Shown here piece after piece: positions 11,529 through 63,480 of a stretch of DNA of 64,000 nucleotides. Made by a program: the position numbers and the translations under genes. The stretch covers positions 13,418,491-13,482,490 of the forward strand of contig OY720345.1 of NCBI GenBank assembly GCA_963082975.1. The letters are read 5' to 3'. How positions within the stretch are numbered: the stretch's first letter is position 1; each line of letters begins with the position of its first letter. Under the pieces are notes generated by a model. It searched no databases. It was not told the DNA's origin and worked only from the letters and a program-made list of their open reading frames with translations. This stretch comes from Labia minor (taxonomy: Eukaryota > Arthropoda > Insecta > Dermaptera > Spongiphoridae).

Positions 11529-12778
11529 GTTTTATTTAGCGATCTTTTATCTATCCCGAATCTTCAATATCTTAAAGAAGACCTTTTTATACAGTCCACC
11601 CAATTTTCAAAGTGCGATAGAAGTGAAGAGGTATCTATCGTATTTTTATTAATCCCTCTTTTTAGCCCTTCGAGCAAAATTAATAGATATTAAAGATTCA
11701 TCCCATTCCATTTCATCCCACTTTCGATTTTTCAGGAACAAAAATTTTCTTTATTTATTTAGGTCTTACAAGCCGTTGTTAGATGTATCAAGCAGATACA
11801 CTTAGGTAATAACGTTTTGAAAATTATCAAGACCAAACCACAAAATCTCTTAACCTATATCATATTTATGTGTTCTTCAATTACTAACAGTAAAATAATT
11901 CCTCATAAAATTAAATCTATATATTGTCAAAGTATTCTTATCATTTTATATATTTTTTCCAGTAGAATAAATATATATATATATATATATAATAAAAGGT
12001 GTGATGATTCATTAGATATTTTCTTATTTGACAGGTGTGAGCTCGATTCGATGCCAAGTTGTTTAACAAGTTATATATATATATACAATATAATATAGTT
12101 TATGATGAAATAAAAAGAAAAACGATCAAGGTAAACGGTTTTTGTTAATTAAAAAAGATCATGGAATTCTTCTCCCAAGGAATTAATAAATAATTTAAAA
12201 AAAAAAAAAAAAAATTTATTTATTTTTGAATTGGGAATAAAGAATTTTGTACGTATTTTATAGAGAATATTATAAGAATGTCGGAAAAATGTCACTTTCT
12301 CTCTTTCTTTCTCTTTTTCTAATAACTTGTACATTCTTCCTCTCTGTTCATACTTCCGCAATCTAATGTATCAACTGAATTAATATTTATAATACTAACT
12401 CTTTAATTATACATGGAAAAATTTATTGTTTATTTCGCCCCTCTTCATGAATCCCTCTAATTGATATTATTTTATTGTTTTTGAAATTAAAAGATATCTA
12501 CCTGAATATATATTCATAAATAATTTTTTCTTTTTGTTCATATAATATAATAATTAATCATCATTTTTAACATTTAATAGAAAACTAAAATAAATTAAAT
12601 TATCATTTTAAAGAAAATTTAATAAAAAGTTATTAAATATCAATTCATATATTATTTTACATATAATTCATCAGTTATTAAATTGAAATATATATATATT
12701 TAAAATTGATTATAAAACTTAAGCAATTTCATTTACATTTACAGAACATATTTTGACAATATTCCAACTAATATTACT
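11529..12778. other. AT-rich spacer
   Basis: Moderately complex from 11550 to 11820, then AT-rich with TA runs (about 11970-11990 and 12073-12082) and a CT-rich tract at 12295-12320. No gene is assigned. Confidence 0.4.
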
Positions 12779-13235
12779 TGTAGCGAAAATAATTCCGAAG
12801 CGCCCCGCTAATAGGCTCTCCGGAGCGCTAGTGGTCTCGCTCGCCCCTCCACTGTCTCGCGCGCCCGATCAGCTCCGCCCAGCTGCGCGCGCCCGGTCCG
12901 CTCCGCCAAGCTGCGCGCGCACCTCGCCTCACCACCTGGCCGGCGCCCCTCCACAAACTACCTCTATATAAGGGCTCGCCCGAAACACACAAAGAGAGAG
13001 CGACAGGAGACCTAGAAGGTATCACCAGCCTCTCCTGCCCACCCAGGTTACTGCATCCATCCCATTGGAACTAACCTGGATTATCCCTCGCAGGTTACTG
13101 CATCCATCGATTGGAACTAACCTGTGCCCCCTTCCCCCTAAACTAGTCCATCCTTTGTATTACTTGGATAGAAATAAAGATTTTTTTCACTCGAGAACCC
13201 CGATCTTTCATTTATAACCTAAAATCCCCGTTATA
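12779..13235 (+). repeat. 5' LTR
   Basis: Begins TGTAGCGAAAA and ends CCCCGTTATA. A TATA box (CTCTATATAAGGG) lies at about 12961-12973 and a polyadenylation signal AATAAAG at about 13174, so U3, R and U5 are plausible in order. Within it a roughly 32-base unit (AGGTTACTGCATCCATC...GGAACTAACCT, itself ended by an inverted AGGTTA/TAACCT) occurs twice, at about 13045 and 13092. Confidence 0.95.
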
Positions 13236-14233: not shown

Positions 14234-14244
14234 GAGGGGGAGAT
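14234..14244 (+). other. Polypurine tract
   Basis: GAGGGGGAGAT sits immediately before the 3' LTR (TGTAGCG). It is the expected plus-strand priming site. Confidence 0.85.
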
Positions 14245-14701
14245 TGTAGCGAAAATAATTCCGAAGCGCCCCGCTAATAGGCTCTCCGGAGCGCTAGTGG
14301 TCTCGCTCGCCCCTCCACTGTCTCGCGCGCCCGATCAGCTCCGCCCAGCTGCGCGCGCCCGGTCCGCTCCGCCAAGCTGCGCGCGCACCTCGCCTCACCA
14401 CCTGGCCGGCGCCCCTCCACAAACTACCTCTATATAAGGGCTCGCCCGAAACACACAAAGAGAGAGCGACAGGAGACCTAGAAGGTATCACCAGCCTCTC
14501 CTGCCCACCCAGGTTACTGCATCCATCCCATTGGAACTAACCTGGATTATCCCTCGCAGGTTACTGCATCCATCGATTGGAACTAACCTGTGCCCCCTTC
14601 CCCCTAAACTAGTCCATCCTTTGTATTACTTGGATAGAAATAAAGATTTTTTTCACTCGAGAACCCCGATCTTTCATTTATAACCTAAAATCCCCGTTAT
14701 A
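14245..14701 (+). repeat. 3' LTR
   Basis: 457 bp. I found no difference from the 5' LTR when reading them side by side. Flanked on the right by TACT, matching the base quartet before the 5' LTR. Confidence 0.95.
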
Positions 14702-18503: not shown

Positions 18504-19825
18504 TTTAGATGTATTATTGGTTCATACATTTGCCAATACTTGAAATGCATCTAAATAAAAAATAATCTTTGCGCTAACTTTTAACTCTTATAGCGATGCA
18601 CTTTTATTTAATCTATGCTTGTAAACTTCTGCTCAATAAGAATTATTTTATTTTTTAGAAATATAACATAACATTCGGAACCATATCTGGTGAAAATGGA
18701 GAATGATCAATAATGTTATTTTTGACCGAAGATTAATTACAAAGCTTAGCCTTTTTATTTCCACTACTAAAATATTTTTAATCAAATTTTATTATACCAA
18801 ATACGGCTTTATTGCGTTTATTTTTTGTAAATGTATTAAAAAACTATAATTTATTATAATGAAATCCTTTAAAAATTATAATCTGAAAAAAAAAATATTA
18901 TCAAAGGATTACTTTTTTCTTATATCTACTCGTATATAATAGAATAAAAATAATAATGAATTATTATTTTGTTATTATGTTATCTTTATAATAAAGTATG
19001 TAAATTTTTTTTTATTTCTAATGTTTCAATATATAAGAAAACTGGCTGATAATTGGAAAAGTACTTGATTGTATAAAAAGATGCCTATCAATTTGAATGG
19101 ATTATTTGAGTAGACATCTGCTTTTCCCATTAGTTCTCCATTTCCCTCCACTCCTCGTCTCCTCTTCTTCAGCTCCCACCCTTTTCTTCACCATACATAC
19201 ATCACGGTAATTCTTCATGGCTACTTTATTCAAAGTTCAAATCATTTGATTCGTTAATGAGATATTTTTCGATAGTTAAGTAACTACACTCATATACCGC
19301 CGCCACCTTTCTTCCCTTCTATTTCCGTTTTTTTTTTTTTTTTAGTTTTTTTTCCATCTCCGGAAATATCTGCACGAGAATAAAGAGATTCTATTCTGTC
19401 CCAAGTCAGGTATTTCGTTCCATACAATTAGCTTTTTATAAAAGATGTCAATTATTATTATTTATTATTATATATAAATCTGAAAAGATTTTAAAGTGAT
19501 TTTTTTTTCTATTTCACTTGATATATCTCTATTAAAAATATAATAATAATAATAATAATAAAAATAGTCTATTACAATTAAATATTCTTCTAATATCATT
19601 TATTTAAAAAAAAAAAAACATTAATATTACATAATAAAGATTTTATAAACAAATTTAATAAAAAATTATGATTAAATTAAAATTTAATATTTATTTGTTT
19701 ATTTGTTTTTTCTTTAATTAATTTTATTTTAATCAGATTTGAATTATTTAATATCTTTACAATATTTATATTATTTCTATATAATCAAATTTTTCCAGGA
19801 CAAATATAACCGCAATAAATTAATT
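18504..19825. other. AT-rich spacer
   Basis: No gene is visible. Slightly richer patches lie at 19100-19430, with CT-rich tracts and a poly-T run. Confidence 0.5.
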
Positions 19826-20760
19826 GCTCAGTATTTTAATACATTTTTACTTAGTAAAAAATTCCAAATGACCAGAATTTTATTGTTTTTTGTTCGGTTA
19901 AATTGCTCAGTAATTCATGCTCAGTAAAATAAATAAAATCGTTCAGTATTTGATGCTCAGTATAAATATCACTGATTGCACAGTAAAAATCACTGAATTT
20001 TCAGTAAATATTATTGACTGCGCAGTAAAATGCTCAGTAAATTTTGTGTATTATAATATTGAAGAATTCCTCCATTGTATTTAATTATTTAAATATATTA
20101 TTTTAATTTACATTTTTTTTAAAAATTATTTAAATATAAAAATTAAATATATTTATTTCTGGTATTATATCGCTCAATAAAATATAATGAATTTGTTATT
20201 ATTTACTTTTTTATGTAAATTTATAATTGATTTAATTTTGAAATATTGATACAATAAAATATTTCGGCTCACAGAAATTTTCAATGGTTCTAAAACAAAA
20301 AATGTGAAATTAGGATAGGATTTTTACCGGTATGTACAAGGCAATATGTATTGCAGGCATCAGGAGTTTAGGCCGAGCAATGGAATACAATGTTCCAATT
20401 TTAGTAGAGCGGTATCCACATTTACTTATTGTCATCTACTCTGCGTTAAAATTATGTCCCGCTCGAAATTACCTCACCCTTTCCCACACCACATTTATTT
20501 TTACAGAACGGTTTCCGATTTTACTGGGCTTTGATAATTATTACTTAGCAAAAAGTGTTTTTTACTGGGCATTTAGAATTTTTACTTTGCATTTTGTTTT
20601 TTTACTAAGTGTTTAGTTTCTTTAATCGGCATTTTACTGAGCATTTGGATTTTTTACTGAGTATTTAGTTTTATACTCTGCAATTTTTTTTCGACTGAGC
20701 ATTTAAATAATATATTGGGAAAGTCTACTGTGCATATTATTATAATACTGCGCAATTTAT
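19826..20760. repeat. Block flanked by inverted short-motif arrays
   Basis: On the left (19826-20045) about ten copies or near-copies of GCTCAGTAAA occur in one orientation (for example at 19826, 19905, 19919, 19955 and 20032, with variants GTTCAGTA, GCACAGTA and GCGCAGTA). On the right (about 20520-20760) about twelve copies of the reverse complement, TTTACTGAGCATTT and variants, follow at roughly 20-25-base spacing. The centre, about 470 bp, is partly AT-rich and partly complex, with a 94-codon plus frame of unknown meaning. Motif-rich subterminal regions in inverted orientation are typical of transposase-bound element ends, but I see no clear terminal repeat or target duplication. A cluster of protein-binding sites is the alternative. 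Confidence 0.6.
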
Positions 20761-20807
20761 TGATACCCAAATATATCTATATAGATACAATAAATGACGA
20801 TCTAAAC

Positions 20808-20976
20808 CAGTATTTCCCAATTTGATTGTAAAGGGGGGCAATTCGAAAATGGACTCTACACGAGTTTAACCCTTTTTAATATTAAAAATTATATACATAT
20901 ATATATTACATAGGGGGGCAAAAGAAATTTAAATGGGCTTAGGTGGGCCATTGCACAAAAAGGTTGTGAAACACTG
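20808..20976. mobile_element. hAT-type MITE, short
   Basis: 169 bp, starting CAGTATTTCCCAATTTG and ending AGGTTGTGAAACACTG. Perfect 8-bp duplication ATCTAAAC at 20800-20807 and 20977-20984. GGGGGGCA words lie on both sides of the centre. Confidence 0.9.
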
Positions 20977-36034: not shown

Positions 36035-36761
36035 CGAGGTATGTTCAAAAGAAAAGGTTAATTTTGAATTTTCGCGGACTGTGTAAATTCCATTATCTAA
36101 ATTCTCTTTTAATTATGTTTGTACACATATATTTCTCATATGTTGACATTATCAGCCATTTTGGATTAGTAGTTTATTTTTGACAACTGAAAATGAAATG
36201 TTAGTCACGTTTTTGTGTTTTCTTCGATTTTTTACTTAAAAAAATTGATCAAAGTATCTGTAAAATCTAATAAAGTGCTCCAACGCACTTAAAATGTTGA
36301 AAAGATTTTGCTCATTGATTTCTTCGATCGCAATGGCGTGGTGCATCATGAGTTCTACCCAACAGGTCGTACTGTTAATAAGGAATACTACAAGGAAGTT
36401 ATGCAACGTTTGCGTGAAGCAATACGGTTCAAATGATCGGAATTGTAGAAAAACAAATGCACCAGCTCACACATCATTGCTTGTTGGTGATTTTTTTTTG
36501 CCAAAAAACACCGTATTCACCAGATTTGGACCCTTGCGACCTTTTCCTTTTCCCAAAACCGAAGAGACCAATGAAAGAGAAGTATCTTGCCACAATTGAT
36601 GAGATAAAGTGGGAATCAAAGAACGAGCTGATGACTATACCGAAAAACGCATTTCAGAAGTGCGAGAGGAATTACTTTGAAGGGAACAAAATGGATATTG
36701 ATGAATAAATAAATCCTTTTCGAAATGATTCAAAATTCACCTTTTCTTTTGAACAATCCTC

Positions 36762-47554: not shown

Positions 47555-48035
47555 CTATTTATCTATCTCTGTGGCTCTACGGACTCAAAAGTTCTTGGCC
47601 ACAGCAACCACACCCCTCCAACTATTCCTATTCTGAGGCACAACCTTCCAGTCCCTATCTCTCTCCCATCCTTTCCCACATTATCCACCCATCGTGTCCT
47701 TGGTCTTCCAAGTGGACGTTTCCCACTTGGTCTCCCTACCAATATATTTTCCACCATTCTATCTTCTCCCTTTCTAGTCAGGTGTCCTGCCCACCGCAAC
47801 CTTCTCGATTTTATAATTCTAACTATATCTGGAGATGCATAGAGATCATGCAATTCCTCATTATACAATCTCCGCCATTCCCCGGTGACCTCATCTTTCT
47901 TTGCCTCATAAATGCTTCGCAGAATCCTATTCTCAAATACTGTAAATCTACTCTCGTCACCTAAGGTCATAGACCATGCCTCACACCCATATAATACAAT
48001 CGGTAAAATAATTGTTTTATATATTTTAATGTTAT
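47555..48035 (-). pseudogene. Non-LTR retrotransposon, 3' end of RT ORF, copy 1
   Basis: The minus-strand frame is open from about 48010 to the stop at 47563-47565. It reads PIVLYGCEAWSMTLGDESRF, VFENRILRSIY, EWRRLYNEELHDLYASPDIV, RRLRWAGHLTR and GKRPLGRPRTRWVDNV. This is the C-terminal region following the reverse transcriptase domain of the widespread arthropod endonuclease-reverse transcriptase (RTE/Jockey-like) elements. The RT catalytic YADD region and the endonuclease are absent, as expected for 5' truncation. Just after the stop the copy ends in an AGAGATAGATA tail, a simple-repeat 3' end shared exactly with the opposite-strand copy at 50180. It lacks internal stops, so it may be fairly young. 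Confidence 0.88.
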
Positions 48036-48701
48036 ATTTTATCGATCATTTTTTTTAATGATATTTAATTTAATAATATATATATAGCATATATTATATA
48101 AATGAAAGTAAAAATATTAAAAAAAAAATTAACTAGAAAAAAATAAAATAAAATATATATACCTAAAGAAAATTAATTTTTGAAATGGACTTTTTCTATT
48201 ATTTAAATTCTTTATTACTGACAATTCATGATAGAAGAATCGAATCCAAAACAGAGGGCAAATGAAAGAGAACCCCATGATTTTTCTATAAATTTTTATT
48301 AAAAAAAATAAAGTAACGGTTGATTAAAAAATATTAAAAATATCAGACACACACACACAACATTCAAATTTTATTTTTTTTTAATAAATCTTTTTTTATC
48401 TTCTTTCATTTGGTCTTTTGATAAAAGACTTCCTTTTATTATTATTTTTTTTTTTACTATCATCTCCTCTCATTTTCAATAGGACAAACCCATAAATTTC
48501 TACATCAAATGACATTTCAATGTGGGGGTGGGTTTGGTCCTTTTTATGAATACAATTCCACCCTTAATTAGATCTAGGTGTGTCCTTACTTGACTAAATA
48601 TTTTATAACGATTTTTCACAAGGGGTGTGGCAAATATTATATTTTCAAATTAAATAAATACACTTATTAACAGTACACCGGGATAACTATTCTATGAGTT
48701 A
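48036..48701. other. AT-rich spacer
   Basis: No gene seen. Confidence 0.5.
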
Positions 48702-50179: not shown

Positions 50180-50755
50180 AAAAATTAAATACATAGCTTC
50201 TGTGATAACGAAAGATAATAATATTCGAGATGAGATTAAAGCGAGGTTGCAATCGGGAAACGCCTGTTATCATTCAGTAAAGGGCTTATCGCGTCAAAAT
50301 TATTATCAAAGGGGTTAAAAATTAAAATATATAAAACAATTATTTTAACGGTTGTATTATATGGGTGTGAGGCATGGTCTATGACCTTAGGTGACGAGAG
50401 TAGATTTCAAATATTTGAGAATAGGATTCTGCCAAGCATTTATTGGTCAAAGAAAGATGAGGTCACCGGGGAAGGGCGGAGATTGCATAACGAGGAATTG
50501 CATGACCTCTATGCATCTCCAGATATAATTATAATTATAAAATTGAGAAGTCTGCGGTGGGCAGGACACGTGACTAGAATGGGAGAAGATAGAATGGGGA
50601 AAAATATATTGGTAGGGAAACCAAGTGGGAAACGTCCGCTTGGAAGACCAAGGACGCGGTGGGTAGAATAGGAATACTTGGAGGGGTGTGGTTGCTGCGT
50701 CCAAGAACTTTCGAGTTCCGTAGAGAGCCACAGAGATAGATAGATAGATATAGAT
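50180..50755 (+). pseudogene. Non-LTR retrotransposon, 3' end of RT ORF, copy 2
   Basis: Plus-strand relative of the copy at 47555-48035 that reaches further upstream (IRDEIKARLQSGNACYHSV, from about 50210). One frameshift falls near 50285-50320, before IYKTIILTVVLYGCEAW. It then follows copy 1 through ENRILPSIYWSKKDEVTGE and RSLRWAGHVTRMGEDRM to RPLGRPRTRWVE. A deletion of roughly 45-60 bases removes the WVDNV...EIG segment and brings a stop. It ends AGAGATAGATAGATAGATA, the same GATA-type tail. Confidence 0.88.
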
Positions 50756-57965: not shown

Positions 57966-58454
57966 CAGTAGAACCTCAATAACTTAAGCCTCGGTAACTT
58001 AAAAACTTCTATAACTTCAAAAAATAATATGCTCCCTTCCCATCAGAGCCCAAAACCTCGATAACTTAAATAAGTAATCTCTGTATTGGCTCTCAGAAGC
58101 TGTAATCTTGAAGAAACAAGAATCAGGAGAAAGTCTTCATTGTAAATTTTCGAATTTCCTAATTTAGAACAAACATGTTTGTTTACGTGGTTCAAACAGT
58201 GTCGAAACAAAAACATCAGTGTTAGTGGACCCATACTGAAAGAAAAAGCTGGAGAGTTCGCTAATTCGCTGAAAATCAAAAATTTTAAAGACAGCAATGG
58301 CTGGTTAGAGAATTTTAAGAAACGACATGATTTAGCCTTTGAAAATGTTATTAACCTATACGCCTATCCCTAACATAGACCCTTGATAACTTGAAACCTC
58401 TATAACATAAAATATTTTGTTTCTCTTGGACTTTAACTTATCGAGGCTCTACTG
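57966..58454 (+). mobile_element. Pogo/Tigger-like element, internally deleted
   Basis: 489 bp. Left end CAGTAGAACCTCAATAACTT and right end the reverse of CAGTAGAGCCTCGATAAGTT, the hallmark Tigger/pogo TIR. TA follows on the right; the left flank has CA. Extra CCTCGATAACTTA-type words occur inside both subterminal regions. The DDE catalytic domain is gone. Confidence 0.9.
58155..58373 (+). pseudogene. CENP-B-type HTH domain of Tigger transposase
   Basis: The open frame includes LFTWFKQCRNKNISVSGPIL, KEKAGEF, NFKDSNGWLENFKKRHDLAF. This matches the second helix-turn-helix (HTH_Tnp_Tc5/CENP-B) domain of pogo/Tigger transposases and their domesticated relatives: WF then SGP-L-EKA then F-SNGWL-FKKRH. 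The frame reads without stops for the whole domain and ends in TAA at 58371-58373 soon after. There is no first HTH and no DDE domain, so the encoded protein would be a DNA-binding fragment at most. An ATG is at 58179. Retention of an intact domain in a decayed element may be chance or recent origin. Confidence 0.88.
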
Positions 58455-62589: not shown

Positions 62590-63480
62590 ATTATAATATA
62601 GTTTTTCTACATATTTTGATAACTTTTCTGGCATTTTGTGGATACGTTCGTCTTTTGAAACAAACCAACCAGACACCCAATTTTCGACTTCCTCGTAGAT
62701 ATCAAAATGCTGCTGAGCCATCGATGAAAACAAACGGTAATCTGGTGAAGTCTGGTGAATAAAGCGGGAAGGGTAAGTTTTGCTTTTGTGTCCAGTCGCA
62801 TTGTCGTGTAATAAAAAAAATTACATTGCTGTGTCTTCTGGTTCATTCTGGTCCTTTATCGATCAATGCATTGTTCAAATTGATCATTTGTTGTTTGTAG
62901 TGATCAGTGTTAACAGTTTCATCAGGTTTTAGTGGAAGCTCATGATACACCACACTGTACTGGTTCCATCAAACGAATCGATCTAGTTTTGGAGTTAACG
63001 TTGAAGTTTGTCTCAGATTAAACCATGATTATTTATGTTTAAGATTCTTAAAATAAATCCATTTTTCATGACCATTAAGAATTTGATCCAAAACTGATTT
63101 TCTTTTTTGCCTTTGATGCAAAATTTCACAAGTTTTGTTTTTCGATTTTCCATCTGTCTATTGTTCAATTCATCTGGCACCAATTTTTCAAACTTTTTGA
63201 TTTTTTCCATTGTTTGTTGTACAACATTTAACATTGATACCATTTGATTTCAAGTCAAAGTATCATCTTCATCCAATATTGCGTGCAATTCAGGGTCTTC
63301 AAAATTTGTTCGAGGTCTTTCACGCGTTCTCTAGTTCTAACATCAAAATCAGTATCCGAATCGTTGAAACCATCTTAAACATGTTGCTTGTGATAGAGCT
63401 AGATGACTATATGCCTCGAAAATAATCTGATTCGACTCCGCAGCACTTTACTTCAAATGAAAACAAAAATTTAATGCTTT
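62590..63480 (-). pseudogene. Mariner transposase, nearly full length, inactive
   Basis: Minus-strand pieces cover most of a mauritiana-type mariner transposase in order. The N-terminal helix-turn-helix is near 63380-63470 (LALSQATCLRWFQRF). Then comes LDEDDTL (about 63250). Then come MVSMLNVVQQTMEKIKKFEK and PDELNNRQMENRKTK (63013-63243). The first catalytic site is NGHEKWIYF (63060-63085), where the usual TGDE Asp is His. Next are VVYHELPLKPDETVNTDHYK (about 62905-62965), HDNATGH (second Asp, 62803-62805), and SPDYRLFSSMAQQHFDIYEE (third Asp kept). Several frameshifts and stops separate them. The lost first Asp and the frameshifts make it inactive. I did not find TIRs. Confidence 0.9.

Follow-up and report, generated by a model that had tools for sequence, protein, structure and literature searches.

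In a 64-kb window of the Labia minor genome (the window being the whole stretch of DNA that was analysed), a short motif of the type GCTCAGTAAA recurs in two arrays of opposite orientation, which raises the question of what kind of sequence carries them and what they may be read by. The initial annotation regarded them mainly as the subterminal arrays of a transposon, with hAT and Mutator elements as examples, and gave a dense array of sites for a Maf- or AP-1-like factor as another reading. The segment 19811-20768 is very probably a member of a family of non-autonomous cut-and-paste transposons whose insertion duplicates 9 bp of the target site, with the oriented GCTCAGTAAA arrays as the subterminal regions of this copy. 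The family is new, belongs to a kind already known, and is perhaps a Merlin variant. Its parts and flanks in the window are as follows:

19802-19810, no strand: left target-site duplication AAATATAAC, an 8/9 match to 20769-20777
19811-20768, plus strand: very probable non-autonomous DNA transposon of 958 bp, with ends taken from the alignment with genomic copies and from the 9-bp duplications
19811-19843, plus strand: left tip CGCAATAAATTAATTGCTCAGTATTTTAATACA, whose part from AATTAATTG inwards corresponds in inverted orientation to the right tip
19826-20041, plus strand: left array of GCTCAGTAAA-type motifs, with strict copies on the plus strand only
20172-20181, plus strand: isolated motif variant GCTCAATAAA between the arrays, found with the weight matrix
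20314-20616, plus strand: open frame of 100 codons, with no support as a gene
20353-20491, no strand: GC-richer core stretch, common to a minority of copies and deleted or different elsewhere
20520-20753, minus strand: right array of motifs, with strict copies on the minus strand only and a spacing of mostly 19-21 bp
20735-20768, minus strand: right tip, reading inwards GGGTATC in the window copy and GGGTACC in most copies, followed by the inverted stretch
20769-20777, no strand: right target-site duplication AAATATATC, an 8/9 match to the left one

Motif arrays and arms of the window copy

The strict motif CNCAGTA occurs between 19820 and 20760 seven times on the plus strand (19827-20033) and six times on the minus strand (20522-20746); when these 941 bp were shuffled 2,000 times with dinucleotides preserved, the count averaged 0.14 and never exceeded 2. 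The remainder of the window holds three strict sites. An iterated weight matrix placed 22 of its 47 window sites with a score of at least 8 inside the 941-bp stretch, nine on the plus and two on the minus strand in the left part, ten on the minus strand and none on the plus strand in the right part, and one (minus) in the core. Lowering the score to 4.5 gave 10 plus and 2 minus sites on the left and 1 plus and 13 minus sites on the right, in agreement with the earlier estimate of about ten motifs on one side and about twelve on the other. Between the arrays, the matrix recovered sites at 20172 (plus), 20372 (plus, weak), and 20435-20444 (minus); two core variants that had been reported at 20386-20394 and 20449-20456 were not recovered at those coordinates.

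The right array, followed outwards from a weak site at 20509, proceeds in steps of 20, 20, 21, 20, 20, 20, 12, 20, 19, 19, 33, and 20 bp and has a period of approximately 20 bp with a single 12-bp and a single 33-bp step. The left array, with steps of 23, 56, 14, 22, 14, 23, 42, and 12 bp from 19826, mixes steps of 12-14 and 22-23 bp with gaps of 42 and 56 bp. A literature search with the motif 10-mer returned papers that look unrelated by title among the matches listed, and none was found in a search for Spm/TnpA-type papers. A loose two-motif pattern was present in at least 120 stretches of viral_contigs, which were taken for chance; a plasmid search gave nothing, as did scans of the window with Rfam (gathering thresholds) and for tRNA.

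The similarity between the two arms of the window copy depends on the motif. Under composition-blind scoring, its two 600-bp halves align no better than random stretches do, which were as good in 119 of 283, 79 of 289, and 149 of 289 cases (three score sets); composition-aware scoring brings the arms into an inverted alignment of 94.3, above the 52.6 that the best of 970 controls reached. After the motifs were masked, the inverted-arm score was 25.5 against a mean of 24.0, with 439 of 1,454 as good, and the same orientation gave 27.0. Because masking abolishes the inverted alignment, the arms share the motif and not the spacers, and a long foldback-type terminal inverted repeat (TIR) was rejected for this copy; beyond the tips, its ends have the motif in common, not a long inverted repeat. 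The single-strand fold of the element is stronger than that of 20 shuffles (z -3.5), which adds little. Taking the outermost motifs as tips produced a spurious 8-bp duplication, AATTAATT/AATTTATT, which 9.6% of 3,000 random position pairs equalled in quality, and it was dropped because the genomic copies gave 9 bp at other ends.

Genomic copies, ends and target-site duplications

The genome searched is AT-rich and comprises 604 Mb in 71 contigs. A genome-wide search for blocks with both arrays had been proposed in the initial annotation, and with the element as query it uncovered a dispersed family with at least 66 matches at E ≤ 0.001, a lower bound since 40 of the 188 first-look candidates were scored. 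The relaxed tip pattern shared by the ends of the element is AATTGCTCAGTATTWTAATA. Tip patterns with up to three mismatches were found at 90 left and 69 right places, against none for the reversed-pattern controls, and the right tip of the window copy itself has three mismatches to its pattern. These places form 30 left-right pairs within 30 kb, correctly oriented and with separations of 392-2515 bp (below 950 bp in 15 pairs), and leave 60 left and 39 right tips unpaired at this stringency. Altogether, 59 loci were compared, namely the window, the 39 other scored places, and 19 from the tip pairs; both tips were recognisable, with at most seven errors each, in 39 loci, and the other 20 were left out.

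Comparison of these copies placed the tips 15 bp beyond the outermost motifs, and in the majority sequences, built from 37 copies with L192 and L209 set aside, the first motif likewise starts after 15 bases at both ends. The right tip read inwards is GGGTACCAATTAATTGCTCAGTATTATAATA. At the family level, an inverted stretch of 24 bp, AATTAATTGCTCAGTATTWTAATA, is common to both ends and constitutes a short TIR, where the initial annotation had found none evident; the outermost seven bases are unlike between the ends, the left tip being CGC and the right tip GGG. The inverted arrays reported earlier at 19826-20760 are real, and the true unit extends from 19811 to 20768. The median divergence from the majority among the 37 copies is 5.0% in the left 200 bp and 5.8% in the right 120 bp, with 4.2% and 8.4%, respectively, for the window copy.

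For the target-site duplications, five of the 39 two-tip loci were removed as sharing the flank of another copy, leaving 34, and perhaps slightly fewer of these are independent insertions, since L196 and L198 look by eye like members of the same shared-flank group. The 9-bp flanks are identical in 18 of the 34 loci, match at 8/9 positions or better in 26, and at 7/9 or better in 29, compared with 3, 6, and 53, respectively, of 1,122 pairs in which flanks were swapped between copies. The duplication length is nine because the 8-bp register gives an exact match in one of 34 loci and the tenth base almost never matches (in one of the 18 exact duplications on one side and in none on the other). 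The exact duplications are AT-rich: T is the most frequent base at positions one and two, and A at the final four. The alignment of copies, suggested at the outset for finding ends and target duplications, has thus supplied both. The family has moved in the past, and it displays the features of class II elements: dispersed copies, fixed ends, target duplications of constant length, terminal inverted repeats, and, by Pfam scans of three core frames of the window copy and one frame of L207 and by comparison of the transposase pieces from locus L210 (below) with the 39 elements, no encoded transposase. With the ends lying just outside the arrays, the main reading of the initial annotation was borne out.

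The motif obeys an orientation rule across the family. Within the outermost 300 bp of each end of the 39 copies, or the outer half in copies under 600 bp, the strict motif was counted 182 times on the plus strand and never on the minus strand at the left, and 227 times on the minus strand and never on the plus strand at the right, with no exception among 409. Counted by halves, two minus-strand motifs occur in the left half of L136, L163, and L209 (three of 39 copies), and the right halves are free of plus-strand motifs in all copies. A dense, locally evolved enhancer with sites for a Maf/AP-1-like or other factor would account for a motif density far above chance; given that the arrays belong to a repeat that is dispersed, has defined ends, and is flanked by target duplications, and that motif orientation is set by the element end, such a regulatory cluster is highly improbable as their origin and is not needed once the arrays are explained as transposon ends.

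The interior is less constant than the ends. The core, approximately 20353-20491, can be aligned with 11-13 of the 38 further copies, and query positions 574-712 are absent from many matches. Three core frames of the window copy gave no Pfam family above the cut-off, and with the stretch aligning to so few copies, the core open frame listed in the initial annotation has no support as a gene. The two longest tip pairs (L205 and L206) contain later inserts, as do several other copies. L207 contains an insert that its closest relatives lack and in which neighbouring element sequence is partly repeated; a frame of this insert resembles the hAT C-terminal region at E 0.22, below the cut-off. L145, L151, L205, L206, and L207, and by eye also L146, L150, L158, L196, and L198, lie at the same point in a second repeat, with the flank ..TTGTTTTGTCATATATTGAA and the duplication TTTAATTTT; in these shared-flank copies, the transposon apparently spread as a passenger of its host repeat when that repeat amplified.

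Several other repeats were observed in the window. A hAT-type MITE lies at 20808-20976, approximately 40 bp to the right of the element; its tips are CAGTATTTCCCAA and CAGTGTTTCACAA, and the same 8 bp, ATCTAAAC, flank it on both sides. Identical 458-bp direct repeats (12778-13235 and 14244-14701) surround a middle of 1 kb within a GC-richer stretch, with TGGCGCCCAACGTGGGG just past the first copy, and the pair looks like a candidate short, recent LTR-type element. A frame at 58146-58367 has a Tc5-type transposase DNA-binding domain (PF03221, E 9.3e-19) and is a pogo/Tigger-like remnant. Two related frames on opposite strands (47566-48045 and 50240-50668; 82% DNA identity) resemble by eye the C-terminal part of a LINE and had no Pfam hit at E 0.01, while 36264-36705 and 62593-62820 appear by eye to be mariner transposase remnants, with no Pfam family above the cut-off.

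Candidate sources of the transposase

For the source of the transposase, we lean, with slightly more confidence than doubt, towards a supplier of the Merlin/IS1595 type. The genome has 56 hits to PF12762 (Merlin/IS1595), one of which (C1:70507506-70507676) lies less than 1 kb from a right tip, where approximately 0.03 hit-tip pairs within 1 kb are expected at random; no other hit is within 20 kb of the 159 tips. At this locus, L210, 120 bp of right arm immediately adjoin a transposase gene that is interrupted and lies on the opposite strand, the arm being 72-96% identical to the copies and 86.7% identical to that of the window. A 69-aa piece of the gene matches PF12762 with E 1.5e-8 and 35.2 bits, against a cut-off of 27. 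A second piece, of 122 aa and lying upstream, contains a zinc-ribbon-like segment, CPRCG, for which PF12760 gives E 0.13, below the cut-off. The transposase frame is open into the array with no visible start, no left arm was present in the 5.65 kb examined, and the transposase pieces matched no stretch of the 39 elements. L210 may represent an autonomous copy that has decayed, or else two sequences joined by chance; no autonomous element bearing both tips turned up. Its right flank is that of the L145/L151 group, and the stretch also has an apparent mariner fragment, seen by eye.

In the part of a Merlin survey used here, Merlin elements have target duplications of 8-9 bp, tips that begin with GG, imperfect TIRs, and internal tandem repeats, with the repeat region of Sy.m_F1 duplicated in opposite orientation, and the described members lack the Zn_Tnp_IS1595 domain (PMC8101967). 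The 9-bp duplication of the element falls within this range, its right tip starts with GG, and one copy adjoins a PF12762 transposase of this superfamily, which is related to IS1016/IS1595. Unlike those Merlins, the element has a left tip that starts with CG, which places it outside the tip definition given in that part of the survey, and the L210 gene has a sub-threshold zinc-ribbon-like segment where the Merlins described there are without that domain. The superfamily leans to Merlin and is otherwise Mutator-like, the L210 link being suggestive, not decisive.

Target duplications of Mutator-like elements (MULEs) measure 8-11 bp, and the 9 bp found here fit a transposon moved by a MULE (type-2 Foldback) transposase, as Muta1 of Aedes; we consider this unlikely, yet the most substantial of the alternatives that we weighed. 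MULE genes with open frames are present in the genome (17 hits to PF10551). As far as the Muta1 report was available, this element of Aedes aegypti has 8-9 bp duplications, nine copies of a 12-bp subterminal repeat on 3-4 bp spacers, 145-bp TIRs, and a palindromic tip, and its derivatives keep the ends and vary inside (PMC5225508). The family described here resembles Muta1 and other Aedes MULEs, to the extent they are covered there, in its duplication length, its subterminal arrays of short repeats, and its non-coding derivatives with a variable inside; it differs in having about 24 bp inverted and spacers that differ between the arms, as opposed to the 145-bp TIRs of Muta1. Because the motif-masked arms of the window copy do not align, that copy has no long near-identical TIR, which speaks against a MULE origin. 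Also against it, all 17 PF10551 hits lie more than 20 kb from each of the 159 tips (up to three mismatches), and 13 stretches of about 9 kb at MULE loci carry at most four strict motifs each, so that the earlier Mutator example stands for its duplication length and fails for genomic proximity. The MULE loci L178-L190 have open frames of 429-1137 codons, some being more than 99% identical along about 5 kb, and are possibly a recently active family with no link to the motif-array element.

The hAT element Hermes makes an 8-bp duplication and has a CAG tip, neither of which fits the element, and the 8-bp duplication of P elements does not fit its 9 bp either. A hAT element with BED-bound subterminal repeats would find a parallel in Hermes, where, in the part of the study used, STR2-STR7 on the left and STR1-STR5 on the right are oppositely oriented and most cannot be aligned between the ends (PMC10368747). 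That asymmetric arrangement, with motifs mostly opposite at the two ends, is shared with the element, whereas the Hermes motif is, according to the same part, the four-base AAGT/AAGC (PMC10368747). The hAT-type MITE beside the element also favours this origin, while the duplications (9 bp in 18 of 34 loci, against one of 34 in the 8-bp register) contradict the hAT example of the initial annotation; in addition, CAG as tip gives a flank match of 1/8 in the window, and the hAT-like fragment of L207 lies below the cut-off within an insert absent from relatives. A hAT origin is thus very improbable. Galileo, a Foldback-like member of the P superfamily, is similar in having several THAP sites in internally repetitive ends, as indicated by footprint and EMSA, and dissimilar in its long TIRs with three sites far apart, as far as the consulted sections go (PMC3688188); Galileo is also treated in PMC3573991, likewise used in part.

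Possible role of the oriented arrays

The oriented motif arrays most likely represent putative transposase binding sites, as judged from their arrangement. The element, apparently without a transposase of its own, would be moved by an enzyme supplied in trans from an autonomous relative, and this transposase would dock on the oriented arrays to recognise and pair both ends, probably with several motifs bound at once and the right-array sites about two helical turns apart. Hermes, Galileo, and Muta1, as described above, serve as precedents for such a reading.

Conservation of the motif was compared with that of the spacers in 37 copies. In the left arm, the motif columns have a conservation of 0.916 against 0.890 for the rest (46 of 234 mask shifts as good), and in the right arm 0.858 against 0.864 (143 of 261); selection on the motif was not seen across these copies, its columns being not clearly above the rest. 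This outcome neither proves nor excludes a role, because neutral decay after insertion gives the same result. It would also suit a transposon whose arrays are by-products of tandem expansion, a passive minisatellite without a role in movement, as would the weakly related spacers of the right array (identity 0.41; null 99th percentile 0.396) and its motif number, which ranges from 1 to 11 among the 39 copies when a loose pattern is used. Yet one motif stands in opposite orientation at the two ends, the spacers of the arms are unrelated in the window copy, and the first motif is equidistant from both tips, which makes a wholly passive origin improbable; the right array may in part be a passive 20-bp tandem expansion.

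For the preferred reading as binding sites, we tentatively propose, at somewhat less than even confidence, a Merlin-type lineage with unlike tips (CGC/GGG) that reads its ends by multivalent recognition, through oriented subterminal arrays of an approximately 10-bp motif with a spacing of about two helical turns. The part of the Merlin survey consulted mentions internal tandem repeats and does not mention oriented motif arrays at both ends (PMC8101967). Arrays of subterminal motifs occur in several superfamilies of transposases (hAT, P/Galileo, and MULE), and the strict orientation and variable motif number of this family make it well suited to the question of how many sites per end a transposase requires. 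If Merlin supplies the enzyme, the array design would extend to a superfamily not seen so described in the portion of the literature covered here, and the interest of the family would rise further should both the Merlin link and multivalent binding prove true.
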